The position numbers and the translations under genes are program-made. Positions 5,282 through 36,054 of a DNA stretch of 64,000 bases are shown in pieces (within the stretch, counting starts at the first letter, position 1; each line of letters starts with the position of its first letter). The DNA is from Brevundimonas intermedia (lineage in GTDB: Bacteria > Pseudomonadota > Alphaproteobacteria > Caulobacterales > Caulobacteraceae), in the NCBI RefSeq assembly GCF_027922165.1, contig NZ_BSFD01000002.1, forward strand, positions 478,874 to 542,873, given 5' to 3'. The notes below the pieces were generated by a model. The model was not told the origin of the DNA, did not search any database, and saw only the letters and a list, made by a program, of their open reading frames with translations.

Positions 5282-5529
5282 TCGAACGACGCCGCCTCGA
5301 CGCCCTTGGCCTGACCGTCCGGTCCGACCACGATCTTCTCGACGCGCAGCTGGGCCGCCTTCAGACGGGCCTCGCAATGGGCCTTCAGCTTCGCGCCCTC
5401 TTCGTACAAGGCGATGGATTCCTCCAGCGGCGCCTGGCCTGATTCCAGGCGCGAGACGATGGTCTCCAGGCGCTGAAGGGCGTCTTCGAAGCTGAGGTCT
5501 GCAGAGATGGCGGCGGCGGTATCGGTCAT
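5278..5529 (-). CDS. xseB: Exodeoxyribonuclease VII small subunit
   Basis: An 83-residue helical protein; several copies bind XseA to form exonuclease VII, which degrades single-stranded DNA. The family core is clear: [19 protein letters not shown] followed by [15 protein letters not shown]. The ATG at 5529 is preferred over an open extension to 5565, because family members start 10-15 residues before the SFEDAL helix. xseB immediately upstream of an ispA/dxs set is common in proteobacteria; here csaA has been added between them. Overlaps csaA by 4 bases. Confidence 0.95.
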
Positions 5530-5577
5530 GGCGCGGACCCTAGAGGGGGTCGAAGCCCGCATCAACGGTGGATGCGG

Positions 5578-6240
5578 CTATCGCTTCTCGTAGCGGCGCT
5601 GGGACCAGTATTTGAACCCTTGATTATGCACCAGTTTCCAGCCGTCGGCCTTCAGCCGGGCGCCGACCATGTGATTGAAATAACCGTGGGCGAAGACCAG
5701 CACGTCCTGGCCGGTTTCGGCGCGGGCGATCAGTTTGCGCGCGGCCTGTTCGGCGCGGGTCTCGGCCTGGGCGCGGGTTTCCTGGCCGCCGTGGTGGTCG
5801 AAGGCGTGCCACCAGAAGCGCGACACCACGCCCCACCATTTCGGCGACAGCCTGATCCAGTCGGGGATGGGCGGCGGCGGCAGGGGCGCCTCGATGAACA
5901 GGACGTCCGACATCACCTCGCGCCCGGCGGCGACGGCGGCGGCGGTTTCCTGGGCGCGCTGACGGGTCGAGGCGTAGATGGCGCCGGCGCCCTGGGCCGT
6001 GGCGATCAATTCCGGCGGCGGGGTCTGGCCGGCCAGCAGGCCGCCGATCTCGTATTTCGCCCACCAGTCGCCGTACTGACGCGCGGTGATCAGGCATTTG
6101 CGCGACAGGGCGGGCTCCCCGTGGCGCGTCAGGGTGATGGCGCCCGGCCGCACGCCGACTAAGGCGCGGGACGCAGAGGCCCCGGCCGGCTGGGCGGCAG
6201 AGTCTTCGGTCGAATCGAGGGACAGGGCGGGGGATGACAT
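5578..6240 (-). CDS. Histidine phosphatase family protein
   Basis: About 220 residues of the phosphoglycerate-mutase-like histidine phosphatase superfamily. TLTRHGEP carries the nucleophilic histidine of the RHG motif, and VFAHGYFNHM near the C-terminus holds the second conserved histidine. The substrate is unknown. The central region is tryptophan-rich (PKWWGVVSRFWWHAF), an odd feature perhaps linked to a hydrophobic ligand. ATG at 6240 is used; a TTG at 6267 is an alternative that would leave 13 bases from the deacetylase stop. Located between the HDAC-like gene and xseB, in one direction, probably a single operon. Confidence 0.85.
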   Translation of the reverse strand: MSSPALSLDSTEDSAAQPAGASASRALVGVRPGAITLTRHGEPALSRKCLITARQYGDWWAKYEIGGLLAGQTPPPELIATAQGAGAIYASTRQRAQETAAAVAAGREVMSDVLFIEAPLPPPPIPDWIRLSPKWWGVVSRFWWHAFDHHGGQETRAQAETRAEQAARKLIARAETGQDVLVFAHGYFNHMVGARLKADGWKLVHNQGFKYWSQRRYEKR

Positions 6241-31425: not shown

Positions 31426-31509
31426 GAAAAGGCTATCCCCTGCCCGGCCCGCGCCGGCTTCATCCGCTTCAAGGACAAAGTGACGCGGCTGACAAGGGGC
31501 GCGCGCGTA

Positions 31510-31938
31510 TCAGTCGATCTTCAGCACACGGTCCAGACTGATCACACCCGGTCCGCGCGCGATCAGATAGGCCAGCGGCCCGGCCCAAAGCAGGTGGACG
31601 GGCCAGCCGCCCGGCTCGACGAAGAACTGGATCACGAGGGTCATGAACAGCAGGCCCGCCGCCGCCGGCCGGGTCGCCAAACCCAGCACCAGCAGGATCG
31701 GCAGCAGATGCTCGGCATAGGTCGCCAGATGCGCCGCTAGGTCGGGCGGCAGCAGGGGCACGCGGTATTCGTCGGCGAACAGGTAGCGCGTCGAGGGCGT
31801 TATCGTCAGCAGCCCCTCGACCTTGGTCCGCCCCGACAGGAAGAAGGGCGTTGCGATCCCGAAGCGCAGCAGCAGGGCCAAGGCGGCCTCGGGCACGGCG
31901 GCGGTGATGCGGCGGTGAATATCGGCGATGAGGTTCAT
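31510..31938 (-). CDS. DoxX family membrane protein of bufferin operon
   Basis: A 142-residue DoxX-type protein with four hydrophobic helices and the family segment [20 protein letters not shown]. DoxX proteins often accompany DUF692/DUF2063 genes, probably acting in membrane redox chemistry. The ATG at 31938 lies 2 bases after the bufC stop; the longer open frame to 32094 lies within bufC and is rejected. Fourth and last gene of the operon. Confidence 0.88.
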
Positions 31939-31940
31939 GG

Positions 31941-32699
31941 TCAGTCTTTCGGGATCGAGGATGATGTAAAAGCGCCGAGCGCGATGAGGCCGGCGAAAAG
32001 GGCGGACAGATCCAGACCGGGCGCGGCGGTCTGGGCTGCGGCCGCAGCGACGCCGAACGGCCGATTGAGGCGGCAGGCGTCCAAGAAGACCCATTCCGCG
32101 CGGCTCAATCGCCGCGCCTGCACCTCAGCGCCTGGCCGGTGCACCAGCAGGCCTTCCGCCTCAGCTCGCCATTCAAGAGACGCGTCCGGGGACGGATAGC
32201 GATGCGCCAGCCAGAGCGAGGGCGTGGTCCACTCGAACCAGAACAACTGAACCGACGGGTGCAGGTTGGCCGTCACGCCCGCCAGGGCAGGGCCGAGGGC
32301 GGCGGCCTCGCGCGCCTCGAACGGCGCTGCGTCCTTGGCCAGATGAGCTTGGGTCCAGGCCCGGTCCAACTGGGCGCAGGGCGCGAGATAGGTCATGTCC
32401 CGCGCTGGCTCGAAGCGGGCCAGCCAACCGGGGAAACCAACGCCGTAATCGACCAGCACCGGCGTATCGCCCGGCTGTTCTGCGACGAAGGCGGCGCAGG
32501 CGGCGCGGAACCAGTCTTCGCCGACCATCTGCAACACGGTGGGATAATTGGCCTCCAGGGCGTCGATCCGCGCCTTGATCGTCGTGTTGCGATAGACGGC
32601 CAGCGCCCCCAGCGTCCGGTCGCCCGGCTCCAGGTGCGGCCATAGAGACTCCAGCTCGCCGGTCAGCCCCCTGTCGAAAGCGGCGTGAAACTCCGTCAC
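31941..32699 (-). CDS. bufC: HvfC/BufC-type DUF2063 protein
   Basis: A 252-residue protein whose N-terminal DUF2063 domain is clear ([35 protein letters not shown]). In related systems this partner binds the DUF692 enzyme and presents the peptide substrate (RRE-like role). The start is a GTG that overlaps the bufB stop as GTGA. The C-terminal half resembles the second domain of the family. Confidence 0.9.
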
Positions 32700-33544
32700 G
32701 CCACGGCCTCCACGGCGTTCATCGCTGCGGCGGCGCGCGCCTGTTCGGCCAGAAGGACCGGGAATTGGGGAACATCGCCGTCGCGCTCGACCAGGGTCGG
32801 CCGGGGACCGATCCGCGCGATCAGACGATCATAATGCGTCCAGACGGTCTCGGAAACCGGGGCGTCGTGGCTGTCGATCAACAGGGCCTCGCCCCAGACT
32901 GGATCGGGGCAATGGCCCGCGAGATGGATTTCGCCAACCAGCTCGCCAGGCACGGCGTCCAGCCAGGCCTCGGCGGAGAAACCCATGTTCGAGGCGCTGA
33001 CATGGACGTTATTGACGTCGATCAGCAGGCCGCATCCTGTCCGCCGAGCCATCTCGACCAGAAACTCGACCTCGTCCCACTCATGGCCGGCCAGGGCAAG
33101 ATAGGCGGATGGGTTTTCGATCAGCAGCCGTCGCCCCAGGGCCTGTTGCGCCTCGTCGACATGGTCGCACACCAAGTTCAGCACCTCGCGGCTGCGCGGT
33201 ACAGGCAGAAGGTCGGGATGATAGACGCCGCCACGTCGTGACCAGGCCAGATGTTCGGACACCACAAAGGGTTCGAATCGGTCGATCAGGGCGCGGAACC
33301 GGGCCAGATGGTCGCGATCCGGGCGTTCATCTCCAGCCAGGGACAGGCCGACCCCGTGCAGAGAAAGCGGGCGACCGGCGCGCACCGTCTCCAGCCACGA
33401 CAGACGGGGTCCGCCCGCGACCATGTAGTTCTCGGGATGAACCTCGAACCACAGGCCGCGCTGGGCTCCGGCCGCCGGACAGGCCGCGGCCTCCGAATAA
33501 TGCTGGGGCTTCAGACCCAGTCCGGCGGTCGGAAGCGACGACAT
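32696..33544 (-). CDS. bufB: BufB-type DUF692 multinuclear iron oxidase (MNIO)
   Basis: A 282-residue TIM-barrel enzyme of the DUF692/MNIO family. Members use a di- or tri-iron centre to modify cysteines of a precursor peptide, producing thiooxazole-type metal-chelating groups. Family features include GLWFEVHPENYMVAGGP, PLSLHGVGLSLAG, VSEHLAWS, IENPSAY and LIDVNNVHVSA, which supply histidine, aspartate and glutamate ligands. The start at 33544 shares one base with the bufA stop (TGATG), so enzyme and substrate are translationally coupled. The frame open to 33724 is an overlap artefact. Confidence 0.93.
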   Translation of the reverse strand: MSSLPTAGLGLKPQHYSEAAACPAAGAQRGLWFEVHPENYMVAGGPRLSWLETVRAGRPLSLHGVGLSLAGDERPDRDHLARFRALIDRFEPFVVSEHLAWSRRGGVYHPDLLPVPRSREVLNLVCDHVDEAQQALGRRLLIENPSAYLALAGHEWDEVEFLVEMARRTGCGLLIDVNNVHVSASNMGFSAEAWLDAVPGELVGEIHLAGHCPDPVWGEALLIDSHDAPVSETVWTHYDRLIARIGPRPTLVERDGDVPQFPVLLAEQARAAAAMNAVEAVA

Positions 33545-33837
33545 CAGCGGTTCGCGATCGGGGTCAGCGAACCATTGCCCTTGGGCGTCTGAATCGAGAC
33601 GCAGGTGCCCTTCGCGACCAGTTTCCAGGCATTGCCCTGATAGTCGCGCACCGAGGTGCCGGCGCAGGTGGTGCCGGGGCCGGCGGCGCAGTCGTTCTTG
33701 CCCGCCTTGGCCACGCCATAGCATTTTTCCATGGCGGCTTCCTGCTGCGCGGTGGGGTGGTTCTGCGCAGCGGCGGCATTGGCGCCGAGGGCCAGCAGAG
33801 CGCCGGCGCCGACCAGGATCTTGGTGGAGATGTTCAT
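33544..33837 (-). CDS. bufA: Bufferin precursor, DUF2282 family
   Basis: A 97-residue exported peptide. [20 protein letters not shown] is a signal peptide ending near AAAAQ. The mature part carries the four conserved cysteines of the family: C39 ([14 protein letters not shown]), C50, C58 (TTCAG) and C79 (AKGTC). In characterised bufferins these are modified by the MNIO enzyme, and the product binds copper in the periplasm and protects against excess metal. First gene of bufA-bufB-bufC-doxX, with an ECF-type promoter upstream. Confidence 0.93.
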
Positions 33838-33892
33838 GGGATCGCTTCCTGTGTGACAGCCGTCCAGGGCGGACCAGCTTGACAGGAAGGGT

Positions 33893-33918
33893 TTCGGTCG
33901 CGCCGCGGCCAAGGTTAC
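33893..33918 (-). promoter_or_regulatory. SigF-type ECF promoter for bufA operon
   Basis: On the minus strand GTAACC (33918-33913), 16 bases, then CGAA (33896-33893). The same motif with the same spacing lies in front of the divergent sigma factor gene. It agrees with my recollection of the Caulobacter SigF promoter (GTAACC and CGAA). The bufA start is 56 bases downstream. Confidence 0.78.
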
Positions 33919-33963
33919 GCCGACGAGCCGAAAAAGAATTCGTCGCCGATCTGCACCAGCCAT

Positions 33964-33990
33964 GTAACCTTCGCCGCGTCCGGCGCGAAT
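33964..33990 (+). promoter_or_regulatory. SigF-type autoregulatory promoter of sigma gene
   Basis: GTAACC (33964-33969), 16 bases, then CGAAT (33986-33990). It matches the bufA-side promoter in both elements and in spacing. The -10 element overlaps ATG 33989, so transcription would begin after that codon; this bears on the choice of the sigma gene start. Confidence 0.72.
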
Positions 33991-34000
33991 GGGATGCTGC

Positions 34001-34543
34001 GTGGTCGACAAGGAAGCCGAGCTCAAACGTCTGATGTTACGGGGTCTCGACGGCGACCCCGTGGCCTGGCGCGCCCTGCTGTCCGAGATGCGCGGCGCCC
34101 TGACCCCCTTTTTCAAACGTCGCCTGATCGGCTGCGAAGCCGATGCGGAGGATCTCGTGCAGGACTGCCTGATCGCCATTCACGCCAAGCGCGCGACCTA
34201 TGACCGGTCGCTGCCGTTCACGGCCTGGGCCTATGCGATCGCGCGATACAAGCTGATCGACCATTTTCGCCGTCAGGGTCGTCGTCACGACGTACCGTTA
34301 GAGGAGGCCTCCGTACTGCTGGCCGAACATACCGTCGAGGACGGCGTCGTCCGCCGCGACCTGAAGAAGGTCCTGTCCATTCTGCCACTGCGCCAGCGCC
34401 GCCTCATCGAGGATGTGCGGGTCGGCGGATTCAGCCTGGCCGAAGCCGCACAGCGCAACGGCTTTACCGAGGGCGCGGCCAAGGTCAGCGTCCACCGCTC
34501 CATGAAGACGCTGGTCGCCAGCGTGAACCCCAATGAAGACTGA
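34001..34543 (+). CDS. sigF: ECF RNA polymerase sigma factor (SigF-like)
   Basis: About 180 residues. Region 2 is seen in [20 protein letters not shown] and [20 protein letters not shown]; region 4 in [20 protein letters not shown] followed by a helix-turn-helix ([20 protein letters not shown]). The next gene encodes an NrsF-type anti-sigma factor, the pairing known for Caulobacter SigF, which responds to chromate/cadmium-type stress. The frame has an ATG at 33989 inside the presumed -10 element; GTG 34001 is therefore preferred, close to a leaderless start. ATG 34034 is a further alternative. Confidence 0.9.
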
Positions 34544-35168
34544 CGACCTGATCGACGCCCTGGCCGCCGGACTGGAACCGGCCAAGCCCGCGCGGCCAAG
34601 CCCCGACCTACTGATCGCCGCCGCCTTGACGGCCGGGGCGACCGTGGCCCTGCTGTTGGGCGTGCGACCGGATCTGGCCCAGGCGCTGCAGGGGCCGATC
34701 CCGTGGATGAAGGGGCTCTATACCGCCACCCTGACGGGAACCGGGATCTGGCTGGCGACACGGCTGGGGCGGCCCGGCGTCGATCCACGCCCGGCGGCCT
34801 TCGCCATGCTCGCCGTCGTGGCGGCGGTGGTGCTGTGGGGCGTGATCGAGATGAGCCTGACCCCGCCGGAGCGGCGAATGGCCGACTGGCTTGGAGGGAC
34901 TTGGACCGTCTGCGGCCGCAACATCGTGCTGGTCTCGGCCTTCGCCGCGCCGCTGGTCTTCTTGTCGGCGCGACGGCTGGCGCCGACACGGCCGACGACG
35001 GCCGGTCTGGCGCTGGGTCTGGCGACGGGCGGCCTCGCCGCCGCCGCCTACGGCCTGCTGCACTGTGGCGAGGCGACCGCCGCCTTCGTCGCCACCTGGT
35101 ATACGCTGGGCGTCGCGGCCGCCGGCCTGATCGGCGCCGCCGTCGGCCGCTTCGCCCTGCGTTGGTGA
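34533..35168 (+). CDS. nrsF: NrsF anti-sigma factor (DUF1109)
   Basis: A 211-residue inner-membrane protein with six hydrophobic segments, family DUF1109/NrsF. It should hold the sigma factor at the membrane through its short cytosolic N-terminus ([20 protein letters not shown]). The two cysteines thought to sense oxidant or metal stress are present: C127 (TWTVCGRN) and C178 (LLHCGE), both near the periplasmic side. Overlaps the sigma gene by 11 bases. Downstream it converges on ilvE with 7 bases between stops, and a GC-rich stem (35169-35175 with 35184-35190) there may slow transcription from either side. Confidence 0.9.
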   Translation: MKTDDLIDALAAGLEPAKPARPSPDLLIAAALTAGATVALLLGVRPDLAQALQGPIPWMKGLYTATLTGTGIWLATRLGRPGVDPRPAAFAMLAVVAAVVLWGVIEMSLTPPERRMADWLGGTWTVCGRNIVLVSAFAAPLVFLSARRLAPTRPTTAGLALGLATGGLAAAAYGLLHCGEATAAFVATWYTLGVAAAGLIGAAVGRFALRW

Positions 35169-35175
35169 CGCCGCC

Positions 35176-36054
35176 TTAGGCTTGGCGGCGCACCAGCCTG
35201 CCGTAGGTCTCCATCAGGTCCAGCGACAGGGCGCCGGGGGTGAAGCGATAGTCGCCCACCTCCGCCACCGGCGTCACCTCGACGGCGGTGCCGGTCAGGA
35301 AGCACTCCGAAAAGTCCGACAGTTCTTCCGGCAGGATGTCGCGCACCACGACCTCGATCCCCTTAGCCTTGGCGATCTCGATCACCGTCTGGCGGGTGAT
35401 GCCGTCCAGGATGTGCTCGACCTTGGGCGTGTGCAGCACCCCGTCTTTAACGAAGAAGACGTTGGCGCCGGTCGCCTCGGCCACATAGCCGCGCCAGTCC
35501 AGCATCAGGGCGTCGGCGAAGCCGTTCCGCTCGGCCGTGTTCTTGGACATGGTGCAGATCATGTAGAGACCGGCCGCCTTGGCCGTCGTCGGCGCGGTCG
35601 CCGGATCGGGACGACGCCACTTGGACCATTGCAGACGCAGGCCGCGCGCCTTGACCTCGGGGTCGAAATAGCTGGGCCAGTCCCACACGGCGACCGCCAG
35701 GTGCACCTTGTTGTTCAGGGCCGAGACGCTGGTCTGTTCCGGGCCCAAATAGGCGACCGGACGCACGTAACAGTCGGTCAGACCGTTTTTGGCGCAGGTT
35801 TCGTTACAGATGGCGTCGATTTCAGCGACGCTGTAAGGTATCTCGAAATCGAGCAGGTTCGCGGACCGCTTCAGGCGCTCCGAATGCGGCGTCAGCTTGA
35901 AGATTTCGCCGCCGTACATACGCTCACCTTCGAATACCGACGAGCCGTAGTGGAGGGCATGGGTCAGAATATGCGTCTTCGTTTCCCGCCAGGGCACGAA
36001 TTCGCCGTCCATCCAGATCCAACCATCACGATCGTCGAAAGGAACCAAGGCCAT
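35176..36054 (-). CDS. ilvE: Branched-chain amino acid aminotransferase
   Basis: A 292-residue fold-type IV PLP enzyme that transaminates leucine, isoleucine and valine with 2-oxoglutarate. The PLP lysine is in TTAKAAGLYM, and the cofactor-phosphate region is DGITRQTVIEIAKAKGI; YGSSVFEGERMY is the N-terminal substrate loop. The length is standard. It is divergent from the OmpR-type regulator, 82 bases apart. Confidence 0.95.
   Translation of the reverse strand: MALVPFDDRDGWIWMDGEFVPWRETKTHILTHALHYGSSVFEGERMYGGEIFKLTPHSERLKRSANLLDFEIPYSVAEIDAICNETCAKNGLTDCYVRPVAYLGPEQTSVSALNNKVHLAVAVWDWPSYFDPEVKARGLRLQWSKWRRPDPATAPTTAKAAGLYMICTMSKNTAERNGFADALMLDWRGYVAEATGANVFFVKDGVLHTPKVEHILDGITRQTVIEIAKAKGIEVVVRDILPEELSDFSECFLTGTAVEVTPVAEVGDYRFTPGALSLDLMETYGRLVRRQA

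Follow-up and report, generated by a model that had tools for sequence, protein, structure and literature searches.

A published relative of the locus considered here is that of Caulobacter crescentus/vibrioides, in which CC3252 (nrsF), CC3253 (sigF) and CC3254-CC3257 carry the same domains (Kohler et al. 2012, PMC3511200). In a 64,000-nucleotide stretch of Brevundimonas intermedia DNA (the window), a Buf1 bufferin operon stands divergent from a sigF-nrsF pair, encoding an extracytoplasmic function (ECF) sigma factor and its membrane anti-sigma factor, in one block of about 3.7 kb. This locus very probably corresponds to the SigF-NrsF/bufferin-1 locus of Caulobacter and would work in the manner proposed below. 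The two agree in gene content, gene order and both GTAACC-N16-CGAA promoters, and the cysteine pair C131/C181 of Caulobacter NrsF corresponds to C127/C178 in the window, whose NrsF shares 45% identity with its counterpart in a Caulobacter sp. (L057). The mechanism is transferred from Caulobacter rather than discovered here, and the locus is not new in kind. The additions made here are modest, namely a probably small regulon, a corrected sigF start, a variable chromosomal slot and a suggested two-faced NrsF.

In Caulobacter, the GTAACC-N16-CGAA motif was published with reporter fusions and rapid amplification of 5' cDNA ends (5'RACE); chromate releases SigF, and the effect of C131S/C181S changes in NrsF was described (PMC3511200). 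The same source calls sigF "not strongly auto-regulated" in the presence of chromate or cadmium, and reports that the sigF promoter stays active in a sigF mutant and is served by a second factor as well. Copper induces the whole cluster, including sigF and nrsF, and a sigF::Tn5 mutant is copper-sensitive (PMC8224329). Since sigF mutants are sensitive to copper and not to chromate or cadmium (PMC3511200, PMC8224329), tolerance of the latter two metals is a poor test of function. Peroxides, paraquat and diamide induced the two tested genes at most twofold, while copper, chromate and cadmium were inducers (PMC3511200, PMC8224329).

The peptide product has its own literature. In C. vibrioides, Buf1 has thiooxazole groups, binds copper and aids growth in excess copper (PMC12452194). 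The thiooxazole is further supported by a second paper, in which an absorbance near 305 nm is reported for peptides of this kind (PMC13097082). Modification is predicted for the two middle cysteines, with a disulphide between the first and the last, rather than for all four, and Buf1 clusters are listed together with sigma factor and NrsF genes (PMC12452194). Related sensors serve other outputs. EcfF-OsrA of Bradyrhizobium (ECF16) belongs to the same sigma/anti-sigma family and has the cysteine pair C129/C179, but it answers hydrogen peroxide and singlet oxygen and controls methionine sulfoxide reductase genes; the available part of that paper mentions no bufferin (PMC3420878). The SigF-NrsF/MrpX-YedY1 system of Azospira and BcrS/B0023 of Brucella likewise use this sensor family to drive periplasmic protection, but with a methionine-rich peptide and a methionine sulfoxide reductase against hypochlorite, and not with a cysteine-bearing ribosomally synthesized and post-translationally modified peptide (PMC5748585, PMC8315932). 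In the literature searched, no paper was found that links SigF with bufferin, or Brevundimonas with NrsF; papers outside it may exist.

Gene Content and Coupling

The earlier note on the window had read the minus-strand genes as one coupled operon for a four-cysteine DUF2282 precursor, an MNIO enzyme, a DUF2063 partner and a DoxX protein, divergent from a sigF-like/nrsF-like pair. Profile matches and gene junctions bear out the operon, matches to ECF sigma and PF06532 profiles bear out the plus-strand pair, and the precursor cysteines are C39, C50, C58 and C79 (Table 1). The enzyme also scores above the cut-off of the NCBIfam bufferin maturase model NF050167 MNIO_BufB (349.7 vs 310), and precursor residues 1-25 resemble a Sec-type signal, as judged by eye without a predictor. 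Coupling within the operon is tight, with the bufA/bufB junction reading TGATG, the bufB/bufC junction reading GTGA, and bufC and doxX lying 2 nt apart, a distance on which the doxX start was placed. Similarly, the sigF and nrsF reading frames overlap by 11 nt. All six genes are open, and motifs and coupling are intact. NrsF, DUF2282 and MNIO each have one match in the whole genome of about 3.59 Mb; Caulobacter, in contrast, has an additional DUF2282-DUF692-DUF2063 operon, as well as MsrP, under SigF. Rfam models at gathering scores match nothing in the window, which also lacks tRNA genes.

Table 1. Features of the SigF-NrsF/bufferin locus (positions within the window)
Feature	Coordinates	Strand	Basis
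bufA, Buf1 (DUF2282) precursor, 97 aa	33544..33837	-	PF10048, 85.4 bits (cut-off 22.4)
bufB, MNIO enzyme, 282 aa	32696..33544	-	PF05114, 313.8 bits
bufC, DUF2063 partner, GTG start	31941..32699	-	PF09836, 62.2 bits (cut-off 27.2)
doxX, DoxX membrane protein, 142 aa	31510..31938	-	PF07681, 65.4 bits (cut-off 23.6)
sigF, ECF16-type sigma factor, 180 aa	34001..34543	+	ECF sigma profile match; start taken from GTG
nrsF, six-helix membrane anti-sigma factor with C127 and C178	34533..35168	+	PF06532, 174.2 bits (cut-off 26.8)
Putative SigF-type promoter of the bufferin operon, GTAACC-N16-CGAA	33893..33918	-	exact motif and conservation
Putative SigF-type promoter of sigF-nrsF, GTAACC-N16-CGAA	33964..33989	+	exact motif and conservation
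Gap between the two -35 elements, 45 nt	33919..33963		A+T-rich tract closer to the bufferin -35
Approximate cassette extent against the empty site of close relative L131	31497..35175		flank comparison

The Promoter Pair

The promoter motif proposed in the earlier note for both units, once in each direction, is present in two exact copies and is conserved in relatives; only the plus-strand end, placed at 33990, was one base too far and should be 33989. If transcription begins 5-10 nt past each motif, the bufferin transcript would start at 33883-33888, with a leader of about 46-51 nt, and the sigF-nrsF transcript at 33994-33999. With spacers of N14-18 allowed, these are the only two motifs in the window (0.18 expected; 1 of 100 shuffles reached two). 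The whole genome contains five exact N16 motifs, which means that the motif by itself is not specific; its placement and conservation are.

Conservation was followed in 17 divergent BufA/SigF loci, comprising the window and 16 of 49 NrsF loci, mostly from Brevundimonas. The exact motif occurs on the BufA side in 16 of them, on the sigF side in 10 and on both sides in 10, compared with 0 and 0.0002 exact motifs per region in 300 dinucleotide shuffles of each region, and these motifs stand in otherwise poorly conserved intergenic DNA. Where the sigF side is inexact, it differs by one mismatch (L044, L045, L049 and L053, the last with one mismatch on the BufA side as well) or by an N15 spacer (L051, L055, L057). 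L054, placed outside this set owing to a second precursor gene, has the exact motif on both sides. A second set comprised 17 further Caulobacteraceae loci, without L095 and L121, which duplicate L057 and L050, the latter from Brevundimonas basaltis DSM 25335. Here 7 BufA sides and 10 sigF sides carry the exact motif, and 2 loci carry it on both. At the remaining sites the spacer is N15 or one base differs, CGTA frequently replacing CGAA; the sigF side of L089 has no site that satisfies the scan criteria. The counts of the second set reflect this frequent CGTA in the -10, and neither side is thus better kept in general. Both promoters are conserved beyond chance, and this conservation is stronger evidence than the count in the window.

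Over the first 17 loci, mean A+T content is 0.48 in the 25 nt beside the bufA -35, 0.38 beside the sigF -35 and 0.37 in the region, the two 25-nt stretches overlapping each other where gaps are short. The A+T-rich tract near the bufferin -35, seen in many of these loci, is a possible UP element favouring the bufferin promoter.

The sigF Start Codon

A mechanical reading of the open frame starts sigF at ATG 33989, whose first base also ends the -10. A GTG in frame with sigF follows the -10 by 9-14 nt in 15 Brevundimonas-like loci, namely the window, L039-L048 and L050-L053; L049 and L055 could not be used. The distance from the -10 to the conserved sigF core is 42, 44, 46 or 47 nt in the same loci, so the frame upstream of the GTG is not kept; over all 61 motif-bearing loci, many of them distant, the remainders are 33, 14 and 14. 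Starting at GTG 34001 yields a SigF of 180 aa, near the 179 aa of Caulobacter SigF. The most likely start is therefore GTG 34001, not ATG 33989, and sigF would have almost no leader (2-7 nt, if transcription begins 5-10 nt past the -10). The translation start of the related ecfF of Bradyrhizobium was also shifted downstream, after mapping of its transcript start (PMC3420878).

A different arrangement is found in seven betaproteobacterial loci (L059, L063, L071, L073, L075, L080, L086), where an in-frame sigF ATG lies within the promoter spacer, ATGNNNCGNA, ten bases upstream of the -10 end; the -35 has one mismatch in four of the seven. In L068 an ATG lies 16 bases before the -10 end. In those seven loci, a transcript made from that promoter would be unable to include this start codon, so that it might mainly raise nrsF.

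Conserved Residues and the Predicted Structure of NrsF

C127 and C178 are the sole cysteines of NrsF and are invariant in 48 of 48 full-length relatives. This count leaves aside L054, whose sequence is cut short, and L055, which is frameshifted; both cysteines are visible in the full L054 reading and, across two frames, in L055. In that last locus (L055:5001-5629, Brevundimonas abyssalis TAR-001), nrsF is split over two frames by a frameshift that is either real or due to sequencing. Among the other residues, T3, L6, I7, K60, P81, P151, W189 and W211 are kept in all 48 sequences and T152 in 47.

A predicted model of NrsF, built with 34 sequences, has a mean predicted local distance difference test score (pLDDT) of 95.0 and a predicted template modelling score (pTM) of 0.89. 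It consists of six long helices (24-42, 55-78, 86-109, 124-145, 154-176 and 183-208) plus short ones, with C127 opening helix 4 and C178 coming after helix 5. Given an N-terminus inside, to which arginine-rich inner loops point, both cysteines would lie at the outer face. The protein has no fold relative at E <= 0.001 in a Foldseek search, and a phmmer search of Protein Data Bank chains returned three matches, none at E <= 0.1 (best E 0.13).

Ten second or divergent NrsF-like copies, picked by eye, keep K60, C127, C178 and W189 without exception, whereas 4 of them keep P81, 6 keep P151 and 2 keep W211. This difference suggests that NrsF is built in two parts, an outer sensing cluster (K60, C127, C178, W189) and an inner face on which SigF docks. 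In L100, L113, L114, L116, L122 and L123, a second NrsF-like gene follows nrsF; both cysteines are kept there, while the greater part of the conserved N-terminus and the C-terminal tryptophan are lost. The earlier note had proposed that stress on the two cysteines frees the sigma factor. Homology and conservation agree that both are part of the switch, but they are not equivalent, as in OsrA of Bradyrhizobium C179 is required for the response to hydrogen peroxide and C129 for holding the sigma factor (PMC3420878).

The Size of the SigF Regulon

Exact N16 motifs were counted in six cassette-bearing genomes (the bufferin-bearing G002 lying outside the scan), with five in the own genome, two in G164, three each in G165, G156 and G143, and four in G172. 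Two motifs in each genome are the pair at the cassette, which leaves between none (G164) and three others. G175, with a sigF-nrsF pair and no bufferin seen alongside, has two exact motifs, one of them at the locus, and G087, in which the slot is empty, also has two. When one mismatch was allowed, the own genome gave 95 sites vs 105 for a reversed control pattern. A genome-wide motif search, recommended in the earlier note for defining the regulon, thus fails, and the motif was rejected as a regulon finder because it shows no excess over the control.

The extra motifs of the own genome lie within an 840-codon open frame (L008), opposite a phosphatase-like frame (L007) and at the start of a haem-oxygenase-like frame (L010), the last two named by eye. 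When the 3 kb around the 11 non-cassette exact motifs of eight genomes were compared, only L007 and L161, from the near relative G165, aligned. The other motifs were taken as chance occurrences because their surroundings do not align between genomes. MsrP, considered as a second SigF target, was rejected for this organism: its genome has no PF00174 match, while 9 of 14 control genomes, including Caulobacter vibrioides, did match.

Few extra motifs, no excess at one mismatch and no MsrP match together indicate, as far as the motif can tell, that the SigF regulon in this lineage is probably this locus alone; targets with a weaker motif are possible beyond it. A broader proposal is put forward only tentatively, and we would sooner doubt it than rely on it. 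It combines a private one-target circuit, whose sigma factor serves these promoters only and whose sensor, sigma gene and payload stay or disappear together as a 3.7 kb cassette of a variable slot, with a two-faced NrsF that senses through outer K60, C127, C178 and W189 and holds SigF through an inner face made up of the conserved N-terminal MKTDDLI helix, P81, P151-T152 and W211.

A Variable Chromosomal Slot

The cassette occupies a slot whose content varies among relatives, bordered by an aminotransferase gene on one side and a nucleoside transporter gene on the other. In comparison with L131, which has a 97% identical aminotransferase, the common flank resumes at 31473-31496, 13 nt past the doxX stop, with the stop codon of the aminotransferase at 35176-35178; the empty L131 site contains a terminator-like hairpin (by eye) that is absent from the window. 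The neighbouring aminotransferase was used to query 61 genomes of the genus, and the best 30 matches served as loci, with flanks reaching only the bufA start. The slot contains sigF-nrsF with bufA in 5 of these 30 (the own genome included), sigF-nrsF followed by the transporter in 1, nothing in 12 and other DNA in 8; 4 are undecidable (L133, L155, L156, L157). In L120 the block lies on the opposite side of the transporter. The content of the slot (window 31426-31509 and 35169-35175; L128-L157) varies further, with toxin-antitoxin-like small frames (by eye) in L135 and L141, and a related lipoprotein-like frame in L142, L143, L148-L150 and L154.

The closest named NrsF loci are from Brevundimonas, and NrsF is present in 5 of the 24 same-genus genomes listed. 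Among Caulobacteraceae, 49 of 149 genomes bear DUF2282, and all 49 have an NrsF match. Compared with L041, from Brevundimonas mediterranea DSM 14878, nonsynonymous and synonymous divergence (dN and dS) are 0.022 and 0.256 for MNIO and 0.008 and 0.256 for SigF, values that point to selection on the protein sequence; nrsF is more diverged than sigF (0.16 and 0.45). Between the window and L039-L043, cassette genes have a dS 0.8 to 2.5 times as high as the aminotransferase, a range that agrees mostly with descent and repeated loss. In L047, SigF and NrsF have a dS of 0.46-0.72 vs 0.12-0.28 in the flanks, and this divergence fits replacement. A simple gain of the cassette by transfer was therefore not concluded. 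L047 has the neighbourhood of the window and an exact sigF-side motif; between its sigF and transporter genes the bufferin operon is missing. In L054, the sigma pair lies between two precursor genes, since a second DUF2282-like gene (5512-5778) stands just past nrsF.

In other genomes the same motif precedes genes for methionine sulfoxide reductase (L085), cytochrome b561 (L059, L083, L097) and DUF1223 proteins (L056, L073, L086 and, with one mismatch, L107), which are divergent from, beside or near sigF-nrsF. Eight of ten such payload proteins were assigned to these families, and L069 and L074 had no Pfam match. Together with the published targets of relatives, this makes SigF-NrsF look like a general periplasmic-stress module with exchangeable payloads, bufferin being one of several.

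Proposed Mechanism and Alternatives

In the proposed mechanism, NrsF would retain SigF at the inner membrane until its outer face, around C178 and with C127, senses stress in the periplasm, for which copper in excess or some other thiol-loving agent is the likeliest cause. SigF would then be set free, and RNA polymerase with SigF would fire the two back-to-back promoters. One of them would supply the precursor, the MNIO enzyme, DoxX and the DUF2063 partner. After export, the peptide would bear heterocycles at C50 and C58 and a disulphide linking C39 to C79, and would bind periplasmic copper. The other would supply additional SigF and NrsF, acting as a reset as much as an amplifier. The release of the sigma factor, the chemistry of the peptide and copper as the main signal are carried over from relatives.

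Several points weigh against this reading. Autoregulation of sigF is weak under chromate in Caulobacter (PMC3511200). NrsF, a member of the Pfam family, falls outside the narrow NCBIfam equivalog NF042994 (150 vs a cut-off of 300). Moreover, 40 of 89 NrsF genomes have no DUF2282 match, so NrsF, often found without bufferin, is not a bufferin-specific sensor.

The stress signal cannot be read from the sequence, as relatives answer chromate, cadmium and copper, hydrogen peroxide and singlet oxygen, or hypochlorite. It is conceivable, if unlikely, that the same parts natively answer an oxidant such as hypochlorite, hydrogen peroxide or singlet oxygen, with copper as one route and bufferin guarding periplasmic thiols and methionines. 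The Bradyrhizobium, Azospira and Brucella relatives respond in this way (PMC3420878, PMC5748585, PMC8315932), and the other payloads that follow the motif near sigF-nrsF fit it. However, the at most twofold induction by peroxides, paraquat and diamide in Caulobacter, beside that by copper, chromate and cadmium (PMC3511200, PMC8224329), and the absence of a PF00174 match from this genome argue against it.

The earlier note had also held that SigF raises itself, a claim that is clear in Caulobacter under copper (PMC8224329) and weak under chromate and cadmium; a second factor also acts on the promoter (PMC3511200). That promoter's activity in a sigF mutant suggests an open loop, in which the sigF-side motif is a weak promoter, another factor sets the level of sigF-nrsF, and only the bufferin operon is truly driven by SigF. 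The excess of exact bufferin sides over exact sigF sides among the mostly Brevundimonas loci and the A+T-rich tract on the bufferin side lean the same way. The asymmetry is reversed in the further Caulobacteraceae loci, however, and for this reason the open loop was marked down slightly, to an improbability equal to that of the oxidant signal. It is further opposed by the rise of sigF and nrsF with the cluster under copper in Caulobacter (PMC8224329), by the autoregulation of the Bradyrhizobium relative (PMC3420878) and by the 7 of the 17 loci in which the sigF-side element is inexact but persists, differing by one mismatch or by an N15 spacer. Absence of the block from many relatives could even suggest a decaying remnant without function, but with six open genes, intact motifs and coupling, and the low dN of MNIO and SigF, this is highly improbable.

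Significance

The comparison of loci yields a testable map of NrsF. A two-faced NrsF, if real, would explain how SigF can be bound by an anti-sigma factor that has hardly any cytoplasmic domain. If the regulon is truly small, the locus would be a minimal natural metal-stress switch, consisting of one sensor, one sigma factor and one product under two matched promoters. In effect, it would offer a cleaner setting than Caulobacter, with its two bufferin operons and MsrP, for studying both sensing by NrsF and the effect of a lone bufferin.

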